Shown one piece after another: positions 3,928-23,966 of a stretch of DNA of 26,677 nt (the stretch's first letter is position 1; the number at the start of each line of letters is the position of its first letter). The position numbers were made by a program, and so were the translations under genes. The notes below the pieces were generated by a model that was not told the DNA's origin, ran no database searches, and was given only the letters and a program-made list of their open reading frames with translations. Source of the stretch: a virus; IMG/VR virus record IMGVR_UViG_3300031587_000008, positions 1 to 26,677 of that record; one strand, written 5' to 3'.

Positions 3928-4472
3928 TGGGCAAAATAACCTATGTATTTGTCTTCCTTATCTTCGCAGCGATAGGAGGCATCCTATATATTTACGCACC
4001 GTCATTCTCGCCTCTAACCCTAATCCAAATGGCACCACAGTATTTTCAAAGTTGCCTCTTATGGATTCAACAGAATACAGCACAATTTATAACTACAATC
4101 GCTGGTGTCGGCACAATCATCACGCTGTTTTATAATCAACTTTACAAGAGAGCTAAAGAAGCTCAAGAACAACTGGCAATCAAGAAGGTTGGTGAAGCTC
4201 AAGAAGCAAGTTTGAAAATTCTAGAGCAAAACCAACAGTTAACACAGAAATTGGATAAGGCTAATGAAACAATTGTGAGTATGCAACAGGCTAAAGCGGG
4301 CGCGGGCAACCTACAGAAAACTATTGACGCTCAAACATTGACAATCGAGAAGTTGACGGCTGAGAGAAATCAGGCTTACAGTCTTGCGAATAGTGTAATT
4401 GCTCCTACTGATGAAGAGTTAATTAAAATGGCGAAAAAGCGAAATTTAACTTTAGTTCCCACAGTCAAATAA
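3927..4472 (+). CDS. Membrane-anchored coiled-coil protein
   Basis: The 181-residue protein begins at ATG 3927 (TAATG overlap). An N-terminal transmembrane helix (about 5-25) and a second hydrophobic helix (about 51-69) are followed by a long coiled coil (about 72-165) rich in Gln, Glu, Ala and Lys. The C-terminus is TPTDEEL-like and basic. It may form an oligomeric membrane scaffold together with the preceding two-helix protein. No enzymatic motif and no recognised family. Confidence 0.65.
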   Translation: MGKITYVFVFLIFAAIGGILYIYAPSFSPLTLIQMAPQYFQSCLLWIQQNTAQFITTIAGVGTIITLFYNQLYKRAKEAQEQLAIKKVGEAQEASLKILEQNQQLTQKLDKANETIVSMQQAKAGAGNLQKTIDAQTLTIEKLTAERNQAYSLANSVIAPTDEELIKMAKKRNLTLVPTVK

Positions 4473-4754
4473 TGGAGGTAAAGAATTTGGAATATATCCA
4501 AGGATCATCTTCTAATAACCGCGTCACAAATACTTTGGACCACATGGTATCCCAATTATCCTTATTATTACCCTTGCCCTTGTTATCCTCCTTCTGTTTA
4601 CGTTAAAGTTTCATATAGCTGTCCAAAATGTGGCAAACTGGTAGAAATTGAAGATAACTTCTGCAAGCATTGTGGTTCTGAACTCCGTAAATATTGTGCT
4701 TATTGCGGAAAATATCATCCAAATTTTTGTCCTCATTGTGGAAAACATCTCTAG
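4472..4754 (+). pseudogene. Zinc-ribbon membrane protein gene split across three frames
   Basis: A start region (TTG 4487 with GGAGG 8 nt upstream, or ATG 4472) opens one frame. A clear transmembrane helix (HGIPIILIITLALVILLLF) lies in the second frame (open 4519-4644). A double zinc ribbon (SCPKCGK, FCKHCGS, YCAYCGK, FCPHCGK) lies in the third (to TAG at 4752-4754). Neither the second nor the third frame has an ATG, GTG or TTG before its meaningful part. Two -1 steps in the same direction, equivalent to two single-base losses, would rebuild a normal N-tail, membrane helix and zinc-ribbon protein of about 90 residues. It is therefore degraded, misassembled, or read by unusual frameshifting. 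Confidence 0.6.
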
Positions 4755-4768
4755 GAGGTGAACCAAAT

Positions 4769-5173
4769 TTGAAAGCATCATATTTGCTCGTAGTAGCCAT
4801 AATAGGCGTGTTAGCAGGAGCTATAACTGCTGAAGTTATAACACATCTACTTACAGTTCCAAGCCAAGGCAATATAACTCTTGAATATGGTTTAATTGCT
4901 GAGCCTTCCACAGTAAACTGGGGAACCATGCAAATTGGAGTGCCTAAACAGTGTCAAATCAACATCACTAACGTAGGTACAAAGAATGTGGCGTCACTTA
5001 ATTTGACAAGTGGCAACGCCATAAACCTGACTAGCTATGAGGTGAGCTGGGATTGGGAAGGCGAAAGCTTGCCTGTAGGCTATTATATTGAAGCGAATTT
5101 CCAATTGATTGTATACGAGGCTAGTGCGGAAACTTTCAGTTTAGACCTCATCATAAACGACAAAGGAGCATAA
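4769..5173 (+). CDS. Secreted or membrane-anchored Ig-like beta-sandwich protein
   Basis: The start is TTG 4769, with AGGAGGTGA 7 nt upstream; the same frame is open further upstream but lacks a signal. The 134-residue product has an N-terminal hydrophobic anchor or signal peptide (KASYLLVVAIIGVLAGAITA), then a beta-rich domain. The pattern STVNWGTMQIGVPKQCQI followed by NITNVGTKNVASLNL resembles the ASH/DUF1573-type beta-sandwich seen in extracellular proteins. It should sit outside the membrane. Co-location with other membrane genes suggests an envelope function; the exact role is not visible. Confidence 0.65.
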   Translation: MKASYLLVVAIIGVLAGAITAEVITHLLTVPSQGNITLEYGLIAEPSTVNWGTMQIGVPKQCQINITNVGTKNVASLNLTSGNAINLTSYEVSWDWEGESLPVGYYIEANFQLIVYEASAETFSLDLIINDKGA

Positions 5174-5176
5174 AAA

Positions 5177-5461
5177 ATGAGTGCGGGCAATTGGATTGAC
5201 CGAGAACGCTTATTCAACAAAAAATGTTGCATGATATACGAGGCTTTCATTGACAAAACCTTCCCAGGCTACAGAGATGGCTACGCTGACTTGATAACTG
5301 ATTGGATTCTAACTGAATGGAAAGACAACAACCTAGTGGATGGTTGGCAAAAAGCTGACGCCATTGTAAAAAAGTTTTTAATGCCTACGCTTTACACGAT
5401 TAAGCCTTTACATGACGGCTTATGCGTTTGTCCAAAATGCGGACACAAATTCAAAGAGTGA
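5177..5461 (+). CDS. Small protein with C-terminal CPKCG zinc knuckle, unknown function
   Basis: The 94-residue protein starts at ATG 5177, 3 nt after the previous stop. Most of it is helical with several Trp and Asp residues (DRERLFNKKCCMIYEAFID, then ITDWILTEW). It ends with LCVCPKCGHKF, half of a zinc ribbon; Cys17/Cys18 might complete a site. No family is recognised. The tight operon spacing supports it as a real gene. Confidence 0.6.
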   Translation: MSAGNWIDRERLFNKKCCMIYEAFIDKTFPGYRDGYADLITDWILTEWKDNNLVDGWQKADAIVKKFLMPTLYTIKPLHDGLCVCPKCGHKFKE

Positions 5462-8701: not shown

Positions 8702-10219
8702 ATGCCGAAAACATTACCTAAAGGAATCAGCTATCGCAAAGACGGCGGTGTAATCATTCACCCAGATGTTGCCCTAGACACAACTGAAGGTGGCGGAATC
8801 AAAATTCCAAGCGTCGACACAAGCCTTGGCGCGGGATTTGGCGACACAATCACTGATGATGATAGGTTGTTTGCTGCGGAACGCGAGCCTGTAGCCCATT
8901 TCTTAACGTATGGAATTGCAGCTGATGTGACGGATAAATGGTTCAAGATTGACGATCCAGACACTGAAGAAGCTGATCCAGCACTTGACCGTACAGTTCA
9001 AGATGCATTAACTAAACTGAAGTTTAAGGCAAAATTAACTGAGGCCCTTGAGGCTGAACGTGTTTACGGTTGGAGTTTGCTTGTCGGCGGCTTCAGCGAT
9101 GTATCTGACATACGGAATCTTAATACTCCATTACGAGAGGGCAGCGAGCTTAAACAGTTAGCGGTTTATCAAAAAACGAAAGTGCAAACAGAAACTAAAG
9201 ATGAAAATCCAAACAGTGAACGCTTTGGAGAACCACTCGTTTATAGGCTTGACCGTGGTAGCGGACAATTTTTGTATGTTCATTATAGTCGGGTTTGCAA
9301 GGTGCAGACGCGTAGTAATGGAAAAAGCGTGTTAGACCCAGTATGGGATGACCTAACATGCGGACGTAACATTCGCTGGGGCGCTGCCCAGTGGATGTAC
9401 CGCAACGGCGGAGGCTTTCCAGCCATAGGATTTCCAGCGGGTATGACGCTTCCCAAACTGCAAGAATGGGCTGACAGTGGCGCATTCAGTGATATTATGG
9501 CTCGCACTTACTTGTGTTATGTACAGAACAGCCAAAAAGAGAACGACGGCATGGTTATCGATTTTATCGGTGCTCAAGGCAGAGCGCTTGATCCACAACC
9601 GTTCTTCAAAACTAATGATGAACAAATAAGTAAGGGTAGCGGCGTGCCTCAGCCTAAACTTGTAGGTGCTCAAGCGGGGGCAGTGACAGGCAGTGAAATT
9701 AACATGCAAGACTACTATAAAGTTATCAGCAGAATTCAAGCGCAACTGGAAGATGTTGTTCGCTGGGTGATTGATAAGCTTGCGGATAGTGGACAGTTAA
9801 CGATGATTAAGAGTGCTTCAGATAAGGATGGTAAACTTAAGCAGCTTTTTCACAAGGTTTTTGGTGACTATCGTCACAGAACAGCACGCACATACAATAT
9901 TGAGTGGAACAGCGCCTTTGAATTGAGCGAGGCTGAAGAAAAGGACATTGAGTTAAAGCATGCACAAGCGAACCAGGCGAAGCTGGATTACATGACTGTT
10001 GATGAGGTGCGTGCTGAAGACGGGTTAGACCCGTTGCCAAATGGTGAAGGTGCGACGCTTAAAAAGAGCGGGTTCAATGTTTTCGGCGAAAAAGGAAAAG
10101 AGGAAAATCCCGAATTAGCTGAGGCTGACAAGTTTTTGGTTGTTGATTTGAATAGGAAGCATGAACATGAGCATACTACGAGCAATCCAAGCGGTAAGGG
10201 CGGTTCAGAAAAGGCTTGA
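8702..10219 (+). CDS. Portal protein (DUF1073-like)
   Basis: The 505-residue protein starts at ATG 8702, directly after the terminase stop. Features match phage portals of the DUF1073 type: an N-terminal segment, alternating alpha/beta wing and stem regions (ALEAERVYGWSLLVGG, later FPAGMTLPKLQEWADSG), and a long helical crown (MQDYYKVISRIQAQLEDVVRWVIDKL) with EWNSAFELSEAEEKDIELK near the C-terminus. The portal forms the twelve-subunit ring at one capsid vertex through which DNA passes. Order terminase-portal-MuF is the standard packaging arrangement. The 3' end overlaps the MuF-like gene by 59 nt. Confidence 0.88.
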   Translation: MPKTLPKGISYRKDGGVIIHPDVALDTTEGGGIKIPSVDTSLGAGFGDTITDDDRLFAAEREPVAHFLTYGIAADVTDKWFKIDDPDTEEADPALDRTVQDALTKLKFKAKLTEALEAERVYGWSLLVGGFSDVSDIRNLNTPLREGSELKQLAVYQKTKVQTETKDENPNSERFGEPLVYRLDRGSGQFLYVHYSRVCKVQTRSNGKSVLDPVWDDLTCGRNIRWGAAQWMYRNGGGFPAIGFPAGMTLPKLQEWADSGAFSDIMARTYLCYVQNSQKENDGMVIDFIGAQGRALDPQPFFKTNDEQISKGSGVPQPKLVGAQAGAVTGSEINMQDYYKVISRIQAQLEDVVRWVIDKLADSGQLTMIKSASDKDGKLKQLFHKVFGDYRHRTARTYNIEWNSAFELSEAEEKDIELKHAQANQAKLDYMTVDEVRAEDGLDPLPNGEGATLKKSGFNVFGEKGKEENPELAEADKFLVVDLNRKHEHEHTTSNPSGKGGSEKA

Positions 10220-10430
10220 CGTTGAACCGTTGTTTACTCCTCAAACGGAATGGACTTTTCAAGCAGTGCCAGATGACACTACATGCCCCGTTTGCATGAG
10301 CAAAGACTTGAACATTTACTATGGTGATGAACTGCAACAGAAATTTCCTTACCTAGTTGTAGAGAGCAACTGGGTTATTCGCCCAATGGTTCACCCTAAT
10401 TGTCGTTGCATGTTAATGAGAAAAGTGTGA
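10161..10430 (+). CDS. MuF-like minor head protein (C-terminal domain only)
   Basis: The 89-residue protein has the hallmark of phage MuF/minor head proteins: DDTTCPVCMSKD followed by VHPNCRCML, a conserved Cys/His cluster near the C-terminus. Usual MuF proteins are 250-400 residues, so this is a stand-alone C-terminal domain. The start is ATG 10161 or 10167, preceded by AGGAAG, inside the 3' end of the portal gene. It should sit inside the prohead near the portal. The last 51 nt are duplicated at 10701-10751. Confidence 0.8.
   Translation: MNMSILRAIQAVRAVQKRLDVEPLFTPQTEWTFQAVPDDTTCPVCMSKDLNIYYGDELQQKFPYLVVESNWVIRPMVHPNCRCMLMRKV
10380..10430 (+). repeat. First copy of a 51-bp direct repeat encoding the MuF C-terminus
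   Basis: This copy forms the 3' end of the MuF-like gene. It matches 10701-10751 at 42 of 51 positions, including the first 14 bases and the last 12. Most differences are at third codon positions, so both copies were coding when they diverged. Confidence 0.85.
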
Positions 10431-10450: not shown

Positions 10451-10720
10451 ATGGCTAATGAACCTCCCTGTTGGATACTGGATGAACATTATAAAGATAC
10501 TGGAAAACGTGACTATTCTCGTTGCAATCCTATGTGTTGTACTGTGATTTGCGATTTAATGAAGCCTTGTGTAATTTTTGAAGGAAGCCAAATTATGAAC
10601 GTTAAACCTAAACTTGTGACATTACGAGACGATCTGGAGAAGCTACTTACTCAAGATGTTGGCATTCAAGAATTGATTCATAAAATAACTAAAAAGAGGT
10701 CGCCCAATGGTTCATCCTAA
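10451..10720 (+). CDS. Cysteine-rich small protein, unknown function
   Basis: The 89-residue protein starts at ATG 10451. Its N-terminal half contains seven cysteines (PPCWILDEHYKDTG, SRCNPMCCTVICDLMKPC), suggesting a metal site or iron-sulfur cluster; the rest is helical (LRDDLEKLLTQ). The C-terminal residues are read in a different frame across the second copy of the MuF repeat. The gene therefore lies between the two repeat copies and may be an inserted cassette. No family assigned. Confidence 0.6.
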   Translation: MANEPPCWILDEHYKDTGKRDYSRCNPMCCTVICDLMKPCVIFEGSQIMNVKPKLVTLRDDLEKLLTQDVGIQELIHKITKKRSPNGSS

Positions 10721-10751
10721 CTGTCCATGTATGCTCGTAAGAAAAGTGTGA
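10701..10751 (+). pseudogene. Relic of a second MuF-like C-terminus
   Basis: In the frame starting CGC at 10701 the codons read RPMVHPNCPCMLVRKV then TGA, matching the end of the 10161-10430 product except for Arg to Pro and Met to Val. No upstream MuF sequence remains. It is the end of a paralogue whose front was lost or replaced by the cysteine-rich gene. The methyltransferase start overlaps its TGA. Confidence 0.7.
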
Positions 10752-15224: not shown

Positions 15225-15293
15225 GTGAGTAATAAAGGCATGAAAACATCAGGCGAAACATGGGAATTAACCATAGACGAGGAATTTACTTAG
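15225..15293 (+). CDS. 22-residue leader ORF before the fibre gene (in-frame TAG)
   Basis: GTG 15225 has GAGGTGA 4 nt upstream and encodes SNKGMKTSGETWELTIDEEF-T before TAG at 15291-15293. The next ATG follows immediately and in the same frame. It is either a short leader peptide coupled to the next gene, or the true N-terminus of the next protein if the TAG is decoded. The 58 nt before it show no other gene. Confidence 0.5.
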   Translation: MSNKGMKTSGETWELTIDEEFT

Positions 15294-16007
15294 ATGCTCG
15301 TCAGCACAAAGATCGCCTCAATGTTCAAGCATTCAGGTTTTGTCAACATTGACTATCTCGTTAGAAATAAGCTTGAAACAGACCCTTCCAAAATTCTGGG
15401 AATCCTAAACCGTGATTGGCGAAAATGGGTTAAGCCTGTTTTTATGCTTGACGGAGGAGGAGACCCTGATTTCGGATATAAAGACGGAACATTGAGTTCT
15501 AATGCTCCGAGCAACTACATTGACGGCATACAATCAACATGCCCTGAAAGTGGAACAGGAGAAAGCATATCATGCTATCTCCAATTCTACACTTTGAGTG
15601 GAAAAGTGAAATATGCTCTCTATGAACATAATAGCGGAAATCTCACACAATACACGAATGAATGGACAATAACATCAGGATATGCAGATTGGAAAACGCT
15701 GAATTTTGTTTCAAACCCAAGCCTAACCAATCTTTCTTACATTATTGTGGCATGGCGAGAAGTCACCATAACCCAAAAATACGCATCTGAAGCTAACATA
15801 GAACACTATAAAAGCCAAACCTATGACAGTTTTCCAAGTCAAATAACCGATTGGACTCATCAAAATTACAAATGGAATATCTACTGCTCATACACAACAG
15901 GGGGGGCAAGTATTCCAGTTGTTATGCATCATCGTAGAATGCAAAAAATGAGCGTGGCAAATCGGTTTCCAAAATTGGAGCCTAGAAACATATGCCCGTG
16001 GCTTTAA
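15294..16007 (+). CDS. Virion fibre-like protein with a beta-sandwich (CBM-like) domain
   Basis: The 237-residue protein has a helical/basic N-terminus (ASMFKHSGFVNIDYLVRNKL, DWRKWVKPVF). A domain of about 140 residues (about 55-200) follows that looks like a jelly-roll: YLQFYTLSGKVKYALYEHN, ADWKTLNFVSNPSLTNLSYI, IIVAWREV. This pattern resembles carbohydrate-binding or fibre domains of phages. The ATG directly follows an in-frame TAG and has GAGGAA 9 nt upstream. The 3' end overlaps the next gene by 16 nt. Host recognition or virion decoration is likely; the domain call is by eye. Confidence 0.6.
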   Translation: MLVSTKIASMFKHSGFVNIDYLVRNKLETDPSKILGILNRDWRKWVKPVFMLDGGGDPDFGYKDGTLSSNAPSNYIDGIQSTCPESGTGESISCYLQFYTLSGKVKYALYEHNSGNLTQYTNEWTITSGYADWKTLNFVSNPSLTNLSYIIVAWREVTITQKYASEANIEHYKSQTYDSFPSQITDWTHQNYKWNIYCSYTTGGASIPVVMHHRRMQKMSVANRFPKLEPRNICPWL

Positions 16008-16975
16008 AACAATCTACCGCATCACAGGAAATCGTGTTAGGATACTTCGTCGATAGCACAGACGGCAACACGGAAGAAACAGGTTTAACCATTGCAAACA
16101 CGGACATTAAAATCTGGAAGAACGGAGCCACATCTCTGGCGAACAAAAACAGTGGCGGAGCTACACACATCAGCAACGGCATCTACTATGCTGTTTTAGA
16201 CGCTACAGACACGGACACTCTCGGTCCACTCATCATCTTCGTGCATGTTTCAGGCGCATTAACAGTTCGCTTAGAATGTGAAGTATTACCCGCAAACGTT
16301 TACGATAGCCTATATTCCACGGATAAGCTTCAAGTGGACTGTGTAGAAAAAAGCAGTTCAGCCTTAGACTTCACCACAACCGAAAAGGCAAGCATGAACA
16401 CTGAAGTGGATTCTGCGTTAGACACGGCTGTCCCAGGCACGCCCACAAGCAACAGCATAAATGAACGAATAAAAACAATGGATGACGCTTACACTGCAAC
16501 CCGCGGCGGATACTTAGATAACATCAATAATCCAGCTTTAGCGTCAATCGCCCTAACTGGCACCTATGTGAATGCGCAGGTTAAAGCTCAAGATAACATT
16601 GACTTTGGAGCACTTCAAAAAGCAAGCTTAAACGCTGCCACGCCATCTGTGACAGTTTCAGATAAAACAGGATTCAGCTTAGCCGCAAATCAAAGCACAG
16701 TGACAGTTGGCACAGTGAACACTTTAACAAATTGGGATAAAACAGGCTACGCTTTAAGCTCTGCAGGTATAGATTCCATTTGGGATGAAGTCACAGAGGG
16801 AACGTTGACAGTTCGCCAAGCCTTAAAACTTACAATGGCAATGCTTGCGTCCAAAAGCAGTGGCGGAGGGTCCAACACTCTAGTTTATCGTGATTATGGC
16901 GACAGCAAAGATCGTTTAACCTTCACTGTAGATGCGGATGGCAATAGAACAGCAGTCAGCACGAATGTGACTTAA
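15992..16975 (+). CDS. Tail fibre-like virion structural protein
   Basis: The 327-residue protein has an N-terminal domain seen in many phage virion proteins: LGYFVDSTDGNTEETGLTI, then NTDIKIWKNGATSLANKNSG and a GIYYAVLDATDTDTLGPLII segment. It continues with VSGALTVRLECEVLPANVYDSL. The middle has the GYLDNINNPA-type stalk and repetitive Thr/Ala/Val turns (SVTVSDKTGFSLA). The C-terminus DSKDRLTFTVDADGNRTAV completes a small beta domain. It probably forms an extended trimeric stalk or fibre. No chaperone or enzyme motif seen. Confidence 0.75.
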   Translation: MPVALKQSTASQEIVLGYFVDSTDGNTEETGLTIANTDIKIWKNGATSLANKNSGGATHISNGIYYAVLDATDTDTLGPLIIFVHVSGALTVRLECEVLPANVYDSLYSTDKLQVDCVEKSSSALDFTTTEKASMNTEVDSALDTAVPGTPTSNSINERIKTMDDAYTATRGGYLDNINNPALASIALTGTYVNAQVKAQDNIDFGALQKASLNAATPSVTVSDKTGFSLAANQSTVTVGTVNTLTNWDKTGYALSSAGIDSIWDEVTEGTLTVRQALKLTMAMLASKSSGGGSNTLVYRDYGDSKDRLTFTVDADGNRTAVSTNVT

Positions 16976-16977
16976 AT

Positions 16978-17184
16978 ATGGCGCTCATAAAACCTGGAGT
17001 TTGGCATTCAACCGTTTGGGCTAGTGGCACTTGGCAAGAAGACTTGTGGCTTGAATATGGTACGGCAACAGTGGCGGCAGGTGACAGCGCCAAATATTAT
17101 TATTTCAAGCGTAAGAAGCCTCAAAACGAAGTTTTCGGCTATTTAAAAGAGTTATTGCAGAAAATAGGAGAGCAAACTGAATGA
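16978..17184 (+). CDS. Small Trp-rich virion-module protein (68 aa)
   Basis: ATG 16978 comes 2 nt after the fibre-like gene stop. The product starts with a Trp-rich part (KPGVWHSTVWASGTWQEDLW) and ends with a basic helix (GYLKELLQKIGEQTE). It may be a small partner of the fibre-like protein, for example a tip or adaptor. The 3' end overlaps the next start (ATGA). No family recognised. Confidence 0.6.
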   Translation: MALIKPGVWHSTVWASGTWQEDLWLEYGTATVAAGDSAKYYYFKRKKPQNEVFGYLKELLQKIGEQTE

Positions 17185-18206
17185 CTACCATAACAAATAT
17201 TGCCCAGAGAATCTTGGATGAAAATAACTACACAATCGAAGATGTTACTATCACCAATCTTGAATACTTAATACAGAACGCAATTGACTACGTTAATTTG
17301 CGAGCTGGAACAAGCATTGCAGACTTAACTGGAGGAACCACATTTGCGGATGTTCTGAAAGACGACAACTTCAACGACAACACCATAGATACAACCTATT
17401 GGGAGAAATTCTATTATCCTAACAATTCAAGCGATGTAACGGAAACTGGACAACGAATCCAAATGGTATGCGATACAGCAGGCGACGTACTGGGGCTTAA
17501 CACAATCTCTTCATATGATTTAAGCGAAGCGTCAATAAAAATTTCAATCCCCGTCACACCTGTAGTTCATCAACAAGCCATTTGGTTGTTAAGCGACATC
17601 TACAGAGACGGAGCCGGCAATAGAATGCCGGAAATGTACCCTGCACTCGCTAATGGCTACAACCTTTACAAGTCACCTTTGTACGGAGGCATAACTCGAA
17701 TACGTAGAAACAAATACAAAGCATTCTGGTCAACATGGGAACTAATCTTCAGTGGCGCATGGAAATCCAGCACGGGCAGCATAAAAATAGTCACTCAAAA
17801 CGGGAAAATCACGTTTTACGATGATGATGTCGCCATCTACAGTGAAGCATGGGACAGCAATATTCCAACAGCCTTACATGTGGTTATAGCAAGCTACGCA
17901 GCCACAACATATGTTGGAACGGCGTATTTCGACAATTTTGTGGCAAGCAACGCCACTCTAGTTGAAAATAAAAGCATAACCGCTTCTAGTGCTGAAATTT
18001 TAGCCGTCAAAACTGCTACAGCAGTAAGTCTCCGAGCATATTTGGATCGTGGACCTAATAAAAGCGTTTCGGGAGTAAGCATTTCAAGTGTCATTTCCGA
18101 TCCTCAATACGATTTCTTAACAAAATCATTAGAAGAGCAAATTAAAGAATTAAAACTGCTCAATAAAGAACCGCCAATTTACGTTAAGAATGATCCGGTG
18201 GAATAG
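17181..18206 (+). CDS. Head-tail adaptor split by an inserted ConA/LamG-like lectin domain
   Basis: Residues 1-52 (IAQRILDENNYTIEDVTITN, LEYLIQNAIDYVNLRAG) and 262-341 (AVSLRAYLDRGPNKSV, SDPQYDFLTKSLEEQIKEL) together form the helical fold of head-tail connectors of the gp6/gp15 type, which sit under the portal. Between them, residues about 57-258 form a separate domain: DDNFNDNTIDTTYWEKF, a Trp-rich middle (KAFWSTWELIFSGAWKSS), TQNGKITFYDDDVAIYSEAW, and GTAYFDNFV at its end. This is the layout of ConA-like/LamG lectin domains. Start ATG 17181, with GGAGAG upstream. The insertion would protrude from the neck like a collar. The adaptor call is strong from neighbours; the domain insertion is an interpretation. 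Confidence 0.75.
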   Translation: MTTITNIAQRILDENNYTIEDVTITNLEYLIQNAIDYVNLRAGTSIADLTGGTTFADVLKDDNFNDNTIDTTYWEKFYYPNNSSDVTETGQRIQMVCDTAGDVLGLNTISSYDLSEASIKISIPVTPVVHQQAIWLLSDIYRDGAGNRMPEMYPALANGYNLYKSPLYGGITRIRRNKYKAFWSTWELIFSGAWKSSTGSIKIVTQNGKITFYDDDVAIYSEAWDSNIPTALHVVIASYAATTYVGTAYFDNFVASNATLVENKSITASSAEILAVKTATAVSLRAYLDRGPNKSVSGVSISSVISDPQYDFLTKSLEEQIKELKLLNKEPPIYVKNDPVE

Positions 18207-18209
18207 CTT

Positions 18210-20420
18210 TTGACTTTAGCCACTACGATAAGCGATTGTCTAGATGCAGTCACATGGTCTAATCCAAACCATAACGCAGTTACAATATATTTCGGTTCAC
18301 TTTTAGGCAAATACACTCGGTCAACATATGCAACGGAACTGGATTACCAAAATGACCTTGGCACAATGGCGGCGTACCTCACAGCTGCTGAACTGCATAA
18401 TGGTTGCTACAGTCGCGGTTTTGAATGTATTGCCTTAGCCACAGAGGTTAAGCGTACGCTCGCAGGTGTGACAATGCTGGGGCATCTGCCTCACAATTAC
18501 AGTACTGGAGGCAAAAACTATTTTCATGTTGACCGCAACGGTTACGGTACAATGTTCCGGTATGCTCGTGACTTCAATTATGCGATAACTAAGTGGGATT
18601 CAAGTTTTGCATGGCAAGAATACGAAGTTGGATGCCTCGCAGGCGGTAATCATGGAATCCAAGCGTACAATCCGAGTACAGGCGATAAGATAGATGGCGA
18701 CAACACATTTTACGGCGAAAACGGTCAAAGTCTCAAATTCTTGCTGGAACTATACGAGCTAGATAAGACAAATAATGCTGACGCTTTAACATATGCTAGA
18801 AACACTCTCTGGACCTACCTAAATAACATACATTATAGTGAAGGTCATTACGATTACAGACCAGATCAGACCGGGTATCATTGCCAAGGTGCAGTTTTCC
18901 CAATACTGATAGGTACACTACGAGCATTAAGCGACTATTCTCTAGACAACTGGGACAGAATGTTATTAGATGTAAAAACTCGATTTTTAACTGACGAATG
19001 GGATGCTCCACAGTGGACCTATGGCACGACAAAATATTATGCCACAGTCACCCATCACGACAACACGGAAACTAGGCGACTTGACACTACATTAGACGCT
19101 TGGATAATGCTTCACGCCTTTTATCAGGTCCTTGATTCAGTAAGCCAAACGCACATGCGAAACCTTTTAGATGGCAGCACAAAAGCTTGGGAATATCTTC
19201 TCAGCAACAGCGGGTTATATGATGCTGGAACAAAACAATTTAAAGTCGACAGTGGCTCCTCAGTAAGCGATTACGCAACCGCATGGGGAATAACTTGCCT
19301 CTTTTTTATGGGCATCATCCCCGAAACTGGAAGCCTATACGTTCCTCTCGGCGAGTTTTCGCAAAACTGGATTGGGCTAAACCGCTATTTTCTATTTGAT
19401 TACACCAATGGCAAAATCAGAATTCCAGTTACGGCGGGCTCTCTCAAATTCATTTACGGCTCAGACTCTGTGACAGCCGATTTTCCAGAAGATGCAGTCT
19501 ACGAAATCACTTTTTCCAGCGACTGGAACTTAATCTCAAAAATCGTCAAAATCTCCAATTTAGATCCTAATTTACACTATGTCGCCAAAATAGAGCAAGA
19601 AACTGAGGGCGGACAGCTTTATCGTCAGATTCAAGCAATAGCTAGGCGATATGGCGAAACAGTGACGAGGCGAGCGCTTGTTTTAGGGTTAAGAGACAGC
19701 CAAACAGGATGGTACCATAAGAGCTATGAAGAATCCAGCGTTTACATGATTATCATTCCAAAGACTGCTCAAAGTAAGGCTGTGGAATGCGGAGGCTACG
19801 TTACAACTGACGCTTTAGGCATTACCGTTGCTTACGTAGAACCAGGTGACCAGATTAAATCTTCAAACAACATTTACTATGAAGTTAAAAGTGTTCGGAA
19901 TTTGTATTTTGAAAAGGCTTTTTCACATCGGGAAGTTGACTTAGTTGAGTTGCAAATTCAACAGTTAACTGGCAAAACCTACACTGCCAGCAGTGTGGAA
20001 GATGCAAGATACCGCACACGAGACTACCTTGAAACCTACTTAAACGATGCAGCATTGCCCAATTACATTGTAGCATATGCTGAACCTGAGTATCCATTAA
20101 CACAAATTTTCAACGGTAAAGATGTAGATTTGATTTTCTGTATCGGTGAACCAAATTCCGAACCTCTAATCGATTCTGACCACTCGACCATAGGCTACCG
20201 AGAATCTGTTCCAATCACACCCTGTTGCATAAATAAAACGAACATTGCAGGAACAAAACTGTTACATCAAGCTCGAACGGAGCTGCGCAGAATTTTTGAA
20301 AATTATCCATCTGGAAGCTTGCGACTGCCAATAAGCGAAAGGCCAGAAACTGAATGGTTGGGTTCAACAGTTCTTTATAAATTCACTGCAGTTCTTGATT
20401 ATGAAAGGGATACTGATTGA
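18210..20420 (+). CDS. Fusion: glycosidase-like alpha-toroid, head-closure and tail-terminator domains
   Basis: The 736-residue protein has four parts. Residues about 1-375 are helical hairpins with aromatic/acidic patches (TFYGENGQSLKFLLELYEL, GHYDYRPDQTGYHCQGAV, LDTTLDAWIMLHAF), like six-hairpin glycosidases. Residues about 380-465 are a beta accessory domain. Residues about 470-590 (AIARRYGETVTRRALVL, AQSKAVECGGYVTTDALG, VEPGDQIKSSNNIYYEVKSV) fit a head-closure (stopper) protein. Residues about 600-736 (LPNYIVAYAEPEYPL, KLLHQARTELRRIFENY, EWLGSTVLYKFTAVLDYERD) fit a tail terminator. Separate genes are normal; here the neck carries an enzyme-like domain. Start TTG 18210. Catalytic residues cannot be named confidently. 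Confidence 0.65.
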   Translation: MTLATTISDCLDAVTWSNPNHNAVTIYFGSLLGKYTRSTYATELDYQNDLGTMAAYLTAAELHNGCYSRGFECIALATEVKRTLAGVTMLGHLPHNYSTGGKNYFHVDRNGYGTMFRYARDFNYAITKWDSSFAWQEYEVGCLAGGNHGIQAYNPSTGDKIDGDNTFYGENGQSLKFLLELYELDKTNNADALTYARNTLWTYLNNIHYSEGHYDYRPDQTGYHCQGAVFPILIGTLRALSDYSLDNWDRMLLDVKTRFLTDEWDAPQWTYGTTKYYATVTHHDNTETRRLDTTLDAWIMLHAFYQVLDSVSQTHMRNLLDGSTKAWEYLLSNSGLYDAGTKQFKVDSGSSVSDYATAWGITCLFFMGIIPETGSLYVPLGEFSQNWIGLNRYFLFDYTNGKIRIPVTAGSLKFIYGSDSVTADFPEDAVYEITFSSDWNLISKIVKISNLDPNLHYVAKIEQETEGGQLYRQIQAIARRYGETVTRRALVLGLRDSQTGWYHKSYEESSVYMIIIPKTAQSKAVECGGYVTTDALGITVAYVEPGDQIKSSNNIYYEVKSVRNLYFEKAFSHREVDLVELQIQQLTGKTYTASSVEDARYRTRDYLETYLNDAALPNYIVAYAEPEYPLTQIFNGKDVDLIFCIGEPNSEPLIDSDHSTIGYRESVPITPCCINKTNIAGTKLLHQARTELRRIFENYPSGSLRLPISERPETEWLGSTVLYKFTAVLDYERDTD

Positions 20421-21298
20421 CTAAACCCACAATAACGCACAGTCCAGGCATAGTCAGCGATTTAGTTGCCACAACCGAAGCCCTTGGCACTTGGACGTTC
20501 AACAACACAAACTTGCCTGGAGCCACATTAACTGTGGAACATAATGACTGGTTCACCATTCAAGGAACATTAACAACCACAGCAGACGAGTACGCCTACG
20601 CAGAAATAGATGTTGCAAACACGGTAAGCACCACACTATACCCCTATTATTTGTTGCGGTACAAGACAAGCGCCTCAGCAAACGGACTAGCAGCCAAAGC
20701 CAGAATAATTTATGCTGGCGAGCCTCCCAGCAGCGAGTGGATTTTAACCGAATCTTTCAGCACCCTCTTCAACCTTAAAACTGGAATGTTAACCTCGGGC
20801 AAAATAATAGATAAAATACAGTTGTTCGCTGATGATTATCCTAACACGCTTAACTCTGGAACCTTCAGTGTTTCATTTGACTTTTTTCTAATCTGCAAAG
20901 AACCATTCGCAATACCAAACACTATGTACGGCTTAAATTTTACGCCACCACCAAAATACGCAAAAATTCCAATTCCAAGCAGAGTAACCGACATAACACA
21001 GAATTTAGGAAGCGAAAACGCCACAGTACACGCAATCTGCAATTTAGACCGGGGCAACTGGAAAAGAAGCGGCGACATCCTAAAAGGACAAGTTTTCATA
21101 GACATTGCCCACAACACTTACCAGCATCCATTCCAATGGCTAACCACTGGGCAAGGACACAAATTTAAAGTCAGCTTAGAAGAACCAGTTTTCCGCTACG
21201 AAGATAAACGCCACATTTTAGAATTGCTCTTCACAGAATATTCGCGCAGCAGCAAAAGCAACGAAAGCTATGTCGAACGCTTTGGACTTAACTTGTGA
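20417..21298 (+). CDS. Tail protein with N-terminal carbohydrate-binding-like beta-sandwich
   Basis: Residues about 15-162 form a jelly-roll-like domain (ALGTWTFNNTNLPGATLTVE, YAEIDVANTVSTTLYPYYL, IDKIQLFADDYP, GTFSVSFDFFLI), similar to carbohydrate-binding modules. Residues about 175-293 form a tail-tube or distal-tail-like beta domain (KIPIPSRVTDITQNLGSEN, LKGQVFIDIAHNTYQHPFQW, KRHILELLFTEYSR). The start TTG 20417 overlaps the previous stop. It is the best candidate for tail tube or distal tail protein in this genome. The domain fusion repeats the pattern of its neighbours. Confidence 0.6.
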   Translation: MTKPTITHSPGIVSDLVATTEALGTWTFNNTNLPGATLTVEHNDWFTIQGTLTTTADEYAYAEIDVANTVSTTLYPYYLLRYKTSASANGLAAKARIIYAGEPPSSEWILTESFSTLFNLKTGMLTSGKIIDKIQLFADDYPNTLNSGTFSVSFDFFLICKEPFAIPNTMYGLNFTPPPKYAKIPIPSRVTDITQNLGSENATVHAICNLDRGNWKRSGDILKGQVFIDIAHNTYQHPFQWLTTGQGHKFKVSLEEPVFRYEDKRHILELLFTEYSRSSKSNESYVERFGLNL

Positions 21299-21302
21299 GC
21301 CT

Positions 21303-21342
21303 GCGAAAGTTTGTTCCAATTCTTTGATTGAAACTCTTTCGC
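21303..21342 (+). other. Potential RNA hairpin in the 151-nt gap
   Basis: GCGAAAG (21303-21309) pairs with CTTTCGC (21336-21342). Inner pairing GTTT/AAAC and CAAT/ATTG can extend it with small bulges. A second hairpin GCCAC-GTGGC lies at 21415-21431, near the next start. The gap 21299-21449 holds no ORF of note, so these may act as a processing, attenuation or packaging-related signal. No T run follows, so a terminator is less likely. Confidence 0.4.
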
Positions 21343-21449
21343 GTGCTCCTCCCTTGCAAAGATTATCTATACGCATATGATGCTCGTAGTATTAAGTCTT
21401 ACGATTATCTGCTAGCCACCAGCCTTGTGGCGACGAGGCAAAAAACAAG

Positions 21450-21827
21450 ATGAGCATAAAATACGACTTATCTGATTCTTATCTTAAAGAGAAACTGGCT
21501 AATTTGCCAGAGAAGATGTTAGAGTGGGCTTTTGAAGTTTTAATGAAGCAGGCGGAGCTTATGAAGGGTTTAGCTCAAGTGTATGTGCCAGTTGACACTG
21601 GAAGCCTCAGAGATTCCATAAGGGTTGAGCGTGGTGGGGAAAGCCTAAACTGGCGACAGGTTCGGGTTAGAGCTGGCGGCTACATAACTAATCCTAAGAC
21701 TGGAAGGCTAGTCAACTACGCTGCGGTTGTGGAAGCGAAGTATCCTTTCATGCATCCAGCATTTGAAGAGGTGAAGCCGACGATAGCGGAGATGATTAAG
21801 GTTGCGGTGGTGGAGAAGGCGACGTGA
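21450..21827 (+). CDS. HK97 gp10-like tail/neck protein
   Basis: The 125-residue protein shows the gp10-like pattern: helical N-terminus, then VPVDTGSLRDSIRVE, a beta hairpin (WRQVRVRAGGYI), NYAAVVEAKYPFMHPAFEE and a C-terminal helix. This family includes neck/tail-completion proteins. It normally lies between head-closure and terminator genes; here it follows the fused terminator and tail protein. The start is ATG 21450 with GAGG about 11 nt upstream. A GTGA overlap links it to the next small gene. Confidence 0.75.
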   Translation: MSIKYDLSDSYLKEKLANLPEKMLEWAFEVLMKQAELMKGLAQVYVPVDTGSLRDSIRVERGGESLNWRQVRVRAGGYITNPKTGRLVNYAAVVEAKYPFMHPAFEEVKPTIAEMIKVAVVEKAT

Positions 21828-21997
21828 AACTTAAAGAGTTTGTAGAGTTAGACGCAATGTTAAAAAAAGAAGTTGAAGCGTATGCTGCAGCAGAGAAGCT
21901 TTCCTTAGATCAGTTGCTAGAACTGTCCTTATCTGAATGGTTGAAATTATTGGCGACTGAAATAAATCAGCTTGCATTTGTGATTGAAAATGTCTGA
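21824..21997 (+). CDS. Small helical protein (57 aa) between gp10-like and tape-measure-like genes
   Basis: GTG 21824 overlaps the previous TGA (GTGA), and its own TGA overlaps the next ATG region. The product is helical and acidic (KLKEFVELDAMLKKEVEAYA, LLELSLSEWLKLLATEI). Location suits a tail assembly chaperone, the G/GT role next to tape-measure genes, but the size is small. No direct match. Confidence 0.55.
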   Translation: MKLKEFVELDAMLKKEVEAYAAAEKLSLDQLLELSLSEWLKLLATEINQLAFVIENV

Positions 21998-22292
21998 AGA
22001 AACCGTTACGTTTAATCTCGAGCTGAATACTGAGCCAGCTATAAATAATGTGCGCAGGTTGGAAACTTTAGTTTATCGCACTCTTGGGCTTATGAGGCGA
22101 CTTGGTTTACCCGAAGATATTAGTCAAGCAATCTATAAGGTTCAACGTTTAATTATGGTTTTACGGCTAGCTCATACAGCTATGATAGCATTGAGTTTAG
22201 CCTCTGGTCCCATAGGCTACGCGTTAGCGGCAGTAGGCATAGCCTCAGCTGCAGTTTCATTTTCTGACATGCTCATGGACACGGGCGGCTAA
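21990..22292 (+). CDS. Very short tape-measure-like tail protein
   Basis: ATG 21990 (100 residues) is preferred to an in-frame TTG two codons upstream. The protein has a helical part (VRRLETLVYRTLGLMRRLG, SQAIYKVQRLIMVLRLAHTA) and a hydrophobic Gly/Ala-rich end (ASGPIGYALAAVGIASAAV), resembling the membrane-active segment of tape measures. Siphovirus tape measures are normally several hundred residues or more. If it fixes tail length the tail would be only about 15 nm. It is the only candidate, lying just before the hub gene. Confidence 0.5.
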   Translation: MSEETVTFNLELNTEPAINNVRRLETLVYRTLGLMRRLGLPEDISQAIYKVQRLIMVLRLAHTAMIALSLASGPIGYALAAVGIASAAVSFSDMLMDTGG

Positions 22293-22295
22293 GAC

Positions 22296-23966
22296 ATGAT
22301 TCCGAAATACAAAATTGAAGTTTATCATGGCGCCAATTTAATCCACACAATCACGGATGTGGCTTTAACTCTTCATGTCCGAGATTTGTTAACTAGTGGC
22401 ACTGGAACGTTCTGTTTTAACGTTCCAACAGTTAAAGGTCTCCCCACCACTTTTGAATATAATGATGTTGTAGTTCACGATAAAGTTAAAATTTGGCTAG
22501 GTTACGACAGCGTTTCAGGTGACCCTAATTTTGTGGGAAGGATTTGTAGAGTTAACGCGCCTTTAACTAATGAAACAGGCTATAGCCGAGTTTTTGAGGG
22601 GAAATTGCAGAGTGAAATTTTGCAGCGCAGAATTAAATCGTTTAAGTATTGGCAAAATGTAGGTGTATCAGCTATTGTGGCTGAACTTGCAGGTGATTTG
22701 GGCTTAGGGACAAGTCAGATTGAAAGCGATTCTACGGCTGTTACGTTGAAGGTTGAAGGCGAAACCTACGAGGATGTATTGCGGAAGGTTTCAGATTACT
22801 GGTATGATGGTGACACTAGAATTCTGAAGGATTTTTATGTGGATATTGGCGACGAGGCGCATCCTAACGGTCATCTCGTTTGGGCTAGTCGAGATGGAAC
22901 AGCGCCTTTCAGATCTGGGGCAAATGTTGAAACCTTAACTGTAGGCACAAACATTCTTTCCTATAATATTGTGCGTGACGTCTTATCAGTTAAAAATAGC
23001 GTTAATGTTTATGGCACGTTTGATGAGGCTGCAACTTCAGCTAAGGACCCGCAAGACGAGAATTGGACGGAGAATTTAACAAATTGGACTAAAGAGTTTG
23101 GCGAGGACCTGCAATTAACTAGCGGCTATGCTATTGTAGGCAACTATGGGCTTATTTGTTTCTCAGCAGTGGATGACGGTTATTATCGTGCGCGCATCCG
23201 CAGAAGTTTTGAACCTGACTTTGACTGGGTGAGTGGAAGAGCCAATACGACGCGGAACAGCTACAGCAGAATGAGTTTCTACACGAGAAATATAGGTGGT
23301 TCAGGAGGTGACGTTACTCAAATATGGATTAAGCTTTACGCGCCTGACAGCAGCAACTATTTCAGATACTTCGCTTCCAACATAATTTTGCCGCCTCAAC
23401 TTCACACTTTATGGTTAGATGAGCCTTACGACACAACTGGAAGCCCAGACTACGACAACATAAGGCAAATAGTGTTTGATTTTTCGGCGATTGTTGACCG
23501 CGACTATGTCCTAGACGGCTTTTACTTCCGAGGCGGTCGCTTTCACAGTTCAGCTTCTAACTCAACAAGCCAAACAGACTACGGTCTTAGAGAGATGGTC
23601 AGCGTAGATGACATGCTATATTCTGACACTGATTGCCAAAGGCGCGCTGAAACACTTTTATATCAGCTTAAAGAACCAGCCGTGCGTGCGGACCTCACGG
23701 TTGTTGGAAATGCAAACATTAAAATTGGCGACCGCCTTAGCCTCACGATTCCTGCAGAGGGTATAAGCAGTCAAAGCTTTGATGTGGTAAGCGTAGAACA
23801 TGATTTGAATATGCAGGGCTTCACAACAAAGTTAAGCGCTATGGGCTTAAGCACTGAAAGCACAGCTGACATTAGACAGCTTCCCCCAGTCACAGTTTTC
23901 GACGTGATAGCCCACCATGCCTATTTAAGCCGAAGCGTAGCCCGCGGCCTAGAGGTGATACGTTAA
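22296..23966 (+). CDS. gpD-like tail hub protein with inserted beta-sandwich domain
   Basis: The 556-residue protein starts at ATG 22296. Residues about 1-242 match hub proteins of the gpD/gp27 type (DVALTLHVRDLLTSGTGTFC, VFEGKLQSEILQRRI, VEGETYEDVLRKVSDYW, DVLSVKNSVNVYG). Residues about 428-520 continue this fold (DYGLREMVSVDD, AETLLYQLKEPAVRADLTVV, KIGDRLSLTIPAEG). Residues about 250-425 form an extra domain (ENWTENLTNWTKEFGEDLQL, TQIWIKLYAPDSSNYFRYF, VLDGFYFRGGRF) with a carbohydrate-binding-like beta-sandwich pattern. The hub forms the tail tip or baseplate centre. The stop overlaps the next ATG (TAATG). Confidence 0.75.
   Translation: MIPKYKIEVYHGANLIHTITDVALTLHVRDLLTSGTGTFCFNVPTVKGLPTTFEYNDVVVHDKVKIWLGYDSVSGDPNFVGRICRVNAPLTNETGYSRVFEGKLQSEILQRRIKSFKYWQNVGVSAIVAELAGDLGLGTSQIESDSTAVTLKVEGETYEDVLRKVSDYWYDGDTRILKDFYVDIGDEAHPNGHLVWASRDGTAPFRSGANVETLTVGTNILSYNIVRDVLSVKNSVNVYGTFDEAATSAKDPQDENWTENLTNWTKEFGEDLQLTSGYAIVGNYGLICFSAVDDGYYRARIRRSFEPDFDWVSGRANTTRNSYSRMSFYTRNIGGSGGDVTQIWIKLYAPDSSNYFRYFASNIILPPQLHTLWLDEPYDTTGSPDYDNIRQIVFDFSAIVDRDYVLDGFYFRGGRFHSSASNSTSQTDYGLREMVSVDDMLYSDTDCQRRAETLLYQLKEPAVRADLTVVGNANIKIGDRLSLTIPAEGISSQSFDVVSVEHDLNMQGFTTKLSAMGLSTESTADIRQLPPVTVFDVIAHHAYLSRSVARGLEVIR

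Follow-up and report, generated by a model that had tools for sequence, protein, structure and literature searches.

Are the additional domains in the neck and tail genes of a small tailed virus modules grafted on for contact with its host, or are they ordinary parts of the protein families in which they lie? The question is raised by IMG/VR record IMGVR_UViG_3300031587_000008, a contig of 26,677 bases that was analysed in its entirety (the window), and in particular by its positions 15225-23966. A preliminary description had discerned here five genes (fibre-like 15294, adaptor 17181, closure/terminator 18210, tail 20417 and hub 22296, named by their first positions), each with a separate beta-sandwich or enzyme-like domain, and had proposed that repeated grafting produced a virion-wide glycan-binding architecture. 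We find that grafting is confined to two neck genes, the adaptor and the closure/terminator. In the explanation that we favour, and to which we give somewhat better than even chances as a whole, this stretch encodes the neck and the short tail of a small tailed virus that infects Bathyarchaeia. Its adaptor-closure position would probably be a cargo slot for surface-polymer modules acting as neck-mounted tailspikes, and the extra domains probably help a very short-tailed virus to grip or digest host surface sugars.

An enzyme-like toroid fused to the closure/terminator protein

The product of gene 18210 combines an N-terminal helical domain with stopper and tail terminator domains (Table 1). 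Both the fold matches and the position of the gene after the adaptor identify its C-terminal portion. In Foldseek comparisons against the PDB, residues ~483-736 retrieved 8hdr, 7z4w, 9l0e, 3fz2 and 8bcp, the matches including the neck of Pam3 (8hdr, E 2.8e-4), the SPP1 connector chain and the T1 stopper; head-to-tail stoppers from the BFVD viral library match the same portion. The N-terminal portion is predicted, in an AlphaFold model of the fusion built with ten homologous rows (mean predicted local distance difference test, pLDDT, of 69), to form an alpha/alpha-toroid of about a dozen helices followed by a beta-sandwich (residues 395-450) with a pLDDT of about 90. Foldseek relatives of the toroid include a PL33 lyase (E 4.4e-3), Lin0763 and GH88, and also prenyltransferases. 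The first three are its best structural matches among carbohydrate enzymes, sharing the helical toroid and, in the lyases, the beta-sandwich that follows it, at E-values of only 4e-3 to 0.14. Because prenyltransferases match too, the label of carbohydrate enzyme goes no further than a hint from the fold.

The relatives compared here are designated by L-numbers, which label contigs or loci. Among the small set of seven with a closure region, the closure core occurs alone in six (L052, L053, L078, L079, L096 and L098), while the toroid-closure fusion is found also in L077, a Bathyarchaeia genome contig, with 44% identity. Judged from this distribution, the fusion is a genuine lineage-specific graft. 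Its MTL start is conserved across the window, L077 and L090. In L077 (3881-6293, minus strand) a frame change breaks the protein between residues ~584 and 618, inside the closure part; the second open reading frame (ORF) has extra sequence, and the gene is either truly split or wrongly sequenced at this point. An internal start yielding a free closure protein was considered and is unsupported, the sole candidate being a GTG at residue 485 lacking a good ribosome-binding site.

Other arrangements of the closure region were seen. In L098 (6809-8435) the stopper and terminator are separate ORFs, about 770 base pairs apart, the two being fused in other relatives. In L079 (10036-11916, minus strand), a further Bathyarchaeia genome contig, the closure/terminator and tail proteins form one polypeptide of 626 residues with ~90 extra residues between them. 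L080 (9724-10854, minus strand) is a lone closure/terminator homologue (30%) with a helix-turn-helix-like N-terminal part, located in a chromosome of Bathyarchaeia that has glycosyltransferase- and bactofilin-like genes close by; it could be a provirus remnant or a domesticated gene.

A repeatedly refilled slot between adaptor and closure genes

In several relatives the position between the adaptor and closure genes holds proteins with recognisable Pfam domains: beta-helix proteins in L052, L053, L078, L096 and L098, together with a lyase-like protein in L053 and a BNR/sialidase-like protein in L096. The best matches are to Beta_helix (E 2.5e-24), BNR_4 (E 2.6e-20) and Polysacc_lyase (E 1e-5); both slot proteins of L052, the L096 protein at 4014-5390 and the lyase-like protein score below the curated cut-offs. 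The window has no free protein in this slot, its toroid being fused to the closure protein instead. The simplest reading of these assignments is that the position has been repeatedly loaded with surface-polymer modules, which are sometimes fused. This refilling is the strongest support for repeated grafting, at the level of the slot across the clade, and of the neck proteins, rather than of every gene as had been supposed.

A domain inserted into the adaptor

Gene 17181 is judged to encode the adaptor from its position and from profile comparison. Adaptors of relatives are 123-137 residues long, and all four that were compared (L096, L097/L052, L098 and L004/L053) lack the insert. A profile of these four aligns residues 18-53 of the 17181 product to model positions 14-49, and a second, weak match covers model positions 51-113. 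The two core matches abut in the model and are ~210 residues apart in the protein; hence, the intervening domain is a clean single-loop insertion and, on this comparison, a genuine lineage-specific graft. By eye, the insert displays a ConA-like motif pattern, a resemblance at the motif level. Weak homologues occur in Bathyarchaeia proteins, namely L099, which has a signal-peptide-like start, and L102, whose related domain resembles a trans-sialidase C-terminal domain (E 0.019, below cut-off). Searches of Pfam and the PDB with the insert yielded no identity.

The toroid is a family of bathyarchaeal surface proteins and viral proteins

The toroid belongs to a bathyarchaeal family: homology extends over ~450 residues, with E-values of 1e-152 to 1e-25 in Bathyarchaeia genomes. 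The host proteins mostly combine a hydrophobic signal at the N terminus with a membrane segment at the C terminus, and two of the homologues carry dockerin domains. Several of the genes lie among FtsY-like, ribosomal, aminoacyl-tRNA synthetase and proteasome genes (neighbours identified by eye), and this location among chromosomal housekeeping genes marks them as host genes. In two Bathyarchaeia genomes a host toroid gene (L088 6205-8238 and L089 6923-8818) occupies a conserved housekeeping locus with prefoldin-, FtsY-, eIF6- and ribosomal-protein-like neighbours, which suggests a surface protein of long standing that has been inherited vertically.

The domain was also detected in five further viral contigs, in most of which recognisable head-tail genes lie next to it. 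It is found in very large proteins of 1003-2227 residues in L093 (6678-10370), L094 (6837-10412), L091 (5208-11891) and L095 (6098-9109), those of L091, L093 and L094 having long repetitive or alanine-rich C-terminal regions. The L093 and L094 proteins are encoded downstream of the hub. A maximum-likelihood tree recovers two viral groups, one uniting the window with L077 and L090 and the other comprising L091, L093, L094 and L095. Its well-supported branches force at least two exchanges of the toroid between hosts and viruses, in either direction.

Family-standard domains in the hub and tail proteins

The domain within the hub (gene 22296) is found at the same place in 18 of the 18 full-length hubs examined, with a length of 171-191 residues; the hubs of L093, L094 and L014 also carry it. 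A profile of 13 hub inserts, run with hmmsearch against the PDB, recovered four distinct sequences at E<1: the CBM11 of endoglucanase H twice (2lro/1v0a; a marginal E of 0.002 over positions 12-153 of 169), the N-terminal part of 8QPG, the turret protein of the haloarchaeal siphovirus HFTV1 (E 0.002), and a carbohydrate-binding module (CBM) of a beta-1,4-endoglucanase (E 0.09). For the N-terminal part of 8QPG a carbohydrate-binding module has been proposed by its authors (PMC12494034). The expectation of a carbohydrate-related domain in the hub is thereby borne out at the level of the profile, by which the module looks like a carbohydrate-binding one of the CBM11 type. In the C-terminal core, the YQBQ-like Pfam match (E 2.4e-5) falls just under the curated cut-off; the AlphaFold model of the hub has a pLDDT of 45. 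In four of five relatives the identity is 13-29% for the module as against 36-50% for the core, the order being reversed in L052. Faster divergence of the module fits a host-facing part, and relaxed constraint would look similar.

The N-terminal sandwich of the tail protein (gene 20417) is carried by all three homologues found (L052, L053 and L079) and is hence not an insert. In L077, L096 and L098 the tail-protein slot is filled by an unrelated protein of 162-164 residues without detectable similarity. A PDB search with the sandwich returned no informative match.

We also considered whether all the inserts descend from one ancestor, as the preliminary description had thought possible. Single-sequence searches, and a search of every window protein with the hub-module profile, revealed no relation among them. 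In profile-profile comparisons the hub insert and the tail sandwich resemble each other weakly over 114 columns, scoring above 60 of 60 column shuffles at an hhalign probability of 5.5%; matches elsewhere are shorter and even less convincing. The sole hint would thus be at most a shared fold class, and common ancestry of all inserts is rejected at all three levels of comparison. The gene calls and coordinates of the preliminary description proved correct, and an extra domain is indeed present in the adaptor, closure/terminator, tail and hub proteins; the fibre-like 15294 is a stand-alone protein, neither fused nor inserted. Presence and absence in relatives, which it had put forward as a check, set the adaptor insert and the toroid fusion apart as grafts from the constitutive hub and tail domains.

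Directly before the hub lies a presumed mini tape-measure protein, which has a weak match to PHROG tape measures (E 0.29) and is 98-118 residues long across the clade of relatives. In HFTV1 a tape measure of 341 residues accompanies a tail of 560 Å (PMC12494034). Applying this scaling, about 1.5 Å per residue, to 102 residues predicts that the tail, built from siphovirus-type parts, is about 15 nm long.

The virus and its probable host

The contig encodes an integrase, a DNA methyltransferase, a terminase, a portal, a maturation protease and a major capsid protein, followed by the neck-tail block at 14.3-24 kilobases. The terminase (E 1e-39), portal (2e-44), protease (9e-14) and major capsid protein (3e-16) have PHROG matches, and with the neck and hub genes they place the virus in the Caudoviricetes. 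Every terminase relative with 67-74% identity comes from an uncultivated viral contig; the sole relative found in the genome collection is a Candidatus Bathyarchaeota genome contig (59%), and relatives of the closure and hub proteins, about 50 Bathyarchaeia sequences for the hub, are present in genomes of the same class. From these relatives we infer that the host belongs to Bathyarchaeia. IMG/VR protein queries with the fusion and the hub gave no matches, and relatives were reached through profile and terminase routes. Some of the viral contigs are possibly chimeric or incomplete; for our main claims we draw on several contigs that are independent of one another.

How the modules might act, and what else they might be

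If the neck domains serve in adhesion, each copy in the stopper-terminator ring would display one toroid, as the two are covalently fused, and the adaptor ring would additionally display a beta-sandwich, with the family-standard CBM11-like module on the hub. With a presumed tape measure of about 100 residues, modules mounted on the neck could reach the cell surface. In such a scheme the hub module and the adaptor sandwich would bind host glycans weakly at first contact; the toroid ring would then bind the surface polymer firmly, or cleave it in relatives with complete motifs; and finally the hub would open and DNA would enter. The domain anatomy, the presence and absence of domains, the replacement of proteins in the slot, the CBM resemblance and the existence of host homologues are observed directly, whereas copy number, tail length, glycan as the ligand, order of events, and the enzyme class and any remaining activity of the toroid are inferred.

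Several points weigh against this interpretation. The toroid was modelled by AlphaFold with moderate confidence only. Its fold is common to prenyltransferases, which score similarly, and its sequence matches no family of carbohydrate-active enzymes in Pfam, NCBIfam and PDB sequence searches. Of 13 polar residues that are invariant across 15 host rows, this virus has changed six (R110, R166, D169, E224, E226 and N286). Neither the adaptor insert nor the tail sandwich received a fold assignment in PDB and Pfam searches. That glycans are the ligand, and that they are bound, is suggested by sequence and fold relationships; the tape measure is presumed from its position; and Bathyarchaeia are assigned as the likely host through relatives rather than through spacers.

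The residue changes bear on an alternative that we regard as a serious contender, although with less than even prospects: the toroid could be a captured host surface domain that is no longer an enzyme, serving as an adhesin or mimic that binds the same polymer or partner protein as its host counterparts. The chromosomal, secreted and membrane-anchored homologues of Bathyarchaeia, including the two with dockerin domains, speak for it, as do the six altered positions beside seven that are kept (Y168, E170, Y216, D254, H282, R290 and T294). Because of these changes the toroid of this virus may bind rather than cut, binding being the likelier of the two. However, the tree is compatible with transfer in either direction, the changed residues may or may not be catalytic, and L091, L093 and L094 retain nearly all 13 residues, so that activity may be the rule elsewhere. 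A more specific version, in which a host surface-protein domain was built into the neck through the stopper-terminator ring as an enzyme or pseudoenzyme that recognises the host polymer by the host's own means, with independent acquisitions in at least two archaeal virus lineages, appears to us unlikely. That all the extra domains are ordinary and family-standard, normal modularity having been mistaken for special architecture, is unlikely as an account of the whole. It does hold for the hub module and the tail sandwich, and free-standing proteins in the neck slot are common in relatives; for the adaptor and closure/terminator genes, two of the five, the absence of the adaptor insert from four of four relatives and of the toroid fusion from six of seven already refutes it.

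It is also conceivable, if quite improbable, that the added domains are mechanical, acting as spacers or braces of the head-tail junction in a virus with a minimal tail and having no part in host binding. Two of them do sit on neck rings, and a brace would tolerate a conserved position without a conserved sequence. Yet the same slot in relatives holds beta-helix, lyase-like and sialidase-like proteins, and the toroid-bearing proteins of L093 and L094 have their genes downstream of the hub, where receptor-binding proteins are usually encoded. Scarcely credible is that the toroid-closure fusion is an artefact of assembly or reading frame joining two genes. The broken protein of L077 and the separate closure and terminator ORFs of L098 could be cited in its favour, but a single frame runs from the toroid into the closure core in two sequences that are only 44% identical, their start is conserved, the junction has neither a stop nor a convincing internal start, and the L077 break lies within the closure part rather than at the toroid-closure joint.

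Comparison with known systems

Short-tailed podoviruses of the P22 type mount polymer-binding or polymer-cleaving proteins near the head because their tail is short, and their tailspikes are separate beta-helix trimers. By contrast, the virus described here has its module joined covalently to the stopper-terminator and has siphovirus-like tail genes (hub, terminator and presumed tape measure).

The closest parallel that we considered among archaeal viruses is HFTV1, with its turret protein gp31 and baseplate hub gp44, for which virion-wide glycan modules have been proposed (PMC12494034). Both are archaeal tailed viruses in which several virion sites bear glycan modules, putative ones in the present case; each has a domain that resembles carbohydrate enzymes, here at the level of the fold, and a carbohydrate-binding hub domain, here indicated by the profile. 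HFTV1 already combines a turret CBM and a deacetylase-like domain with a carbohydrate-binding hub domain (PMC12494034), and the earlier statement that no described archaeal virus is known to have such an arrangement is accordingly not supported. The likeness of the hub insert is limited to the CBM part of the turret protein (profile E 0.002). The enzyme-like domain of HFTV1 is a deacetylase on capsid turrets, whereas here it is an alpha/alpha-toroid on the neck stopper-terminator; the window further has an insert in the adaptor, and its presumed tape measure has 102 residues against 341.

The 936-group lactococcal siphophages have CBMs in the neck passage structure, the major tail protein and the evolved Dit, and the abstract of Hayes et al. 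(2019; PMC6669499) states that a neck module and a tail module were shown to bind the host. These phages resemble our virus in that the neck, the tail and the baseplate of a single virion have all acquired such modules, putative ones in our case. They differ in their bacterial host and in that the modules are reported on proteins other than the stopper, terminator and adaptor, a toroid enzyme-like domain not being mentioned in that abstract. Tailed viruses and proviruses of Bathyarchaeia, the host class also predicted here, have been described as Fuxiviridae and Kunpengviridae (PMC10848311) and as BATPV1/2 (PMC11705971). The Fuxivirus genome of 31,982 base pairs is similar in size to the present contig (PMC10848311). 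The sections consulted in these reports record no glycan modules in virion proteins of tailed members, and those of PMC10848311 mention a polysaccharide lyase only for a spindle-shaped virus.

Virion-wide glycan modules are, therefore, already known from the 936 phages and proposed for HFTV1. What is new is that a toroid is fused to the stopper-terminator, that the adaptor has an insert, that a clade of Bathyarchaeia viruses has a probable cargo slot and that host surface proteins share the toroid. Bathyarchaeia rank among the most abundant groups of archaea in sediments, and next to nothing is known about the attachment of viruses to them. The refilling of the slot, the toroid common to host and virion and the hub-family CBM can each be tested with single recombinant domains, and the comparison connects neck-mounted adhesion in archaeal viruses with the short proteins presumed to be tape measures.

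Other features of the window

Table 1. Coordinates of domains and proteins in the neck and tail region, with the presumed tape measures of relatives
Feature	Position	Strand	Basis or remark
Free-standing beta-rich, fibre-like protein, 237 residues	15294..16007	+	No core virion domain detected
Fibre/baseplate-type protein, 327 residues	15992..16975	+	Cyanophage match; L098 match
Head-tail adaptor core, N-terminal half, residues 1-53	17181..17339	+	Profile of four insert-free adaptors
Inserted beta-rich domain of adaptor, residues 54-262, possibly ConA-like lectin fold	17340..17966	+	Without counterpart in relatives' adaptors
Adaptor core, C-terminal half, residues 263-341	17967..18203	+	Weak profile match, model 51-113
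Alpha/alpha-toroid and small beta-sandwich, residues 1-~458, carbohydrate-enzyme-like	18210..19583	+	AlphaFold, Foldseek, homologues
Head-closure/stopper domain, residues ~483-600	19656..20009	+	Foldseek: Pam3, SPP1, T1 and Pa193 neck stoppers; BFVD
Tail terminator domain, residues ~601-736	20010..20420	+	Foldseek: lambda gpU, T5 p142
Tail protein, N-terminal beta-sandwich, residues ~16-170	20462..20926	+	Constitutive in family
Tail protein, C-terminal part	20927..21298	+	Part of gene 20417
HK97-gp10/Neck1-type tail completion protein	21450..21827	+	Pfam E 1.6e-4; PHROG E 1.9e-10
Presumed mini tape-measure protein, 102 residues	21984..22292	+	Directly before hub; hydrophobic C-terminus
Tail hub core, N-terminal part, residues 1-250	22296..23045	+	PHROG and relatives
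CBM11-like beta-sandwich of hub, residues 251-424	23046..23567	+	Profile search; constitutive in hub family
Tail hub core, C-terminal part, residues 425-556	23568..23966	+	Pfam YQBQ-like; PHROG tail proteins
Presumed tape measure of L052	14667-15023		
Presumed tape measure of L053	2700-3005		
Presumed tape measure of L077	2547-2870		
Presumed tape measure of L096	9660-9974		
Presumed tape measure of L098	9531-9827		

The product of 15294 weakly matches the N-terminal part of the toroid-bearing structural protein of L093, which has 1230 residues (E 1e-6, 27%), and also, weakly, L052 2631-3872; a search against phage proteins found no match. In the product of the adjacent gene 15992, the C-terminal part is related to L098 3590-4531 (34%), while the first ~153 residues (15992-16450) share 64% identity with a protein of a Microcystis phage (PP496355.1, E 8e-46) and have no match among 257 Bathyarchaeia genomes. 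This segment seems to have been exchanged recently between an archaeal virus and a cyanophage. As a clue to the host, the similarity was set aside because the terminase, closure and hub proteins point to Bathyarchaeia.

Outside the neck-tail region, a direct repeat of 52 nucleotides (83% identical) occurs at 10379-10430 and 10700-10751, the second copy lying 321 bases downstream of the first. The first copy forms the end of the ORF at 10161-10430 (HPNCRCMLMRKV), and the repeat may be left over from the duplication of part of a gene.

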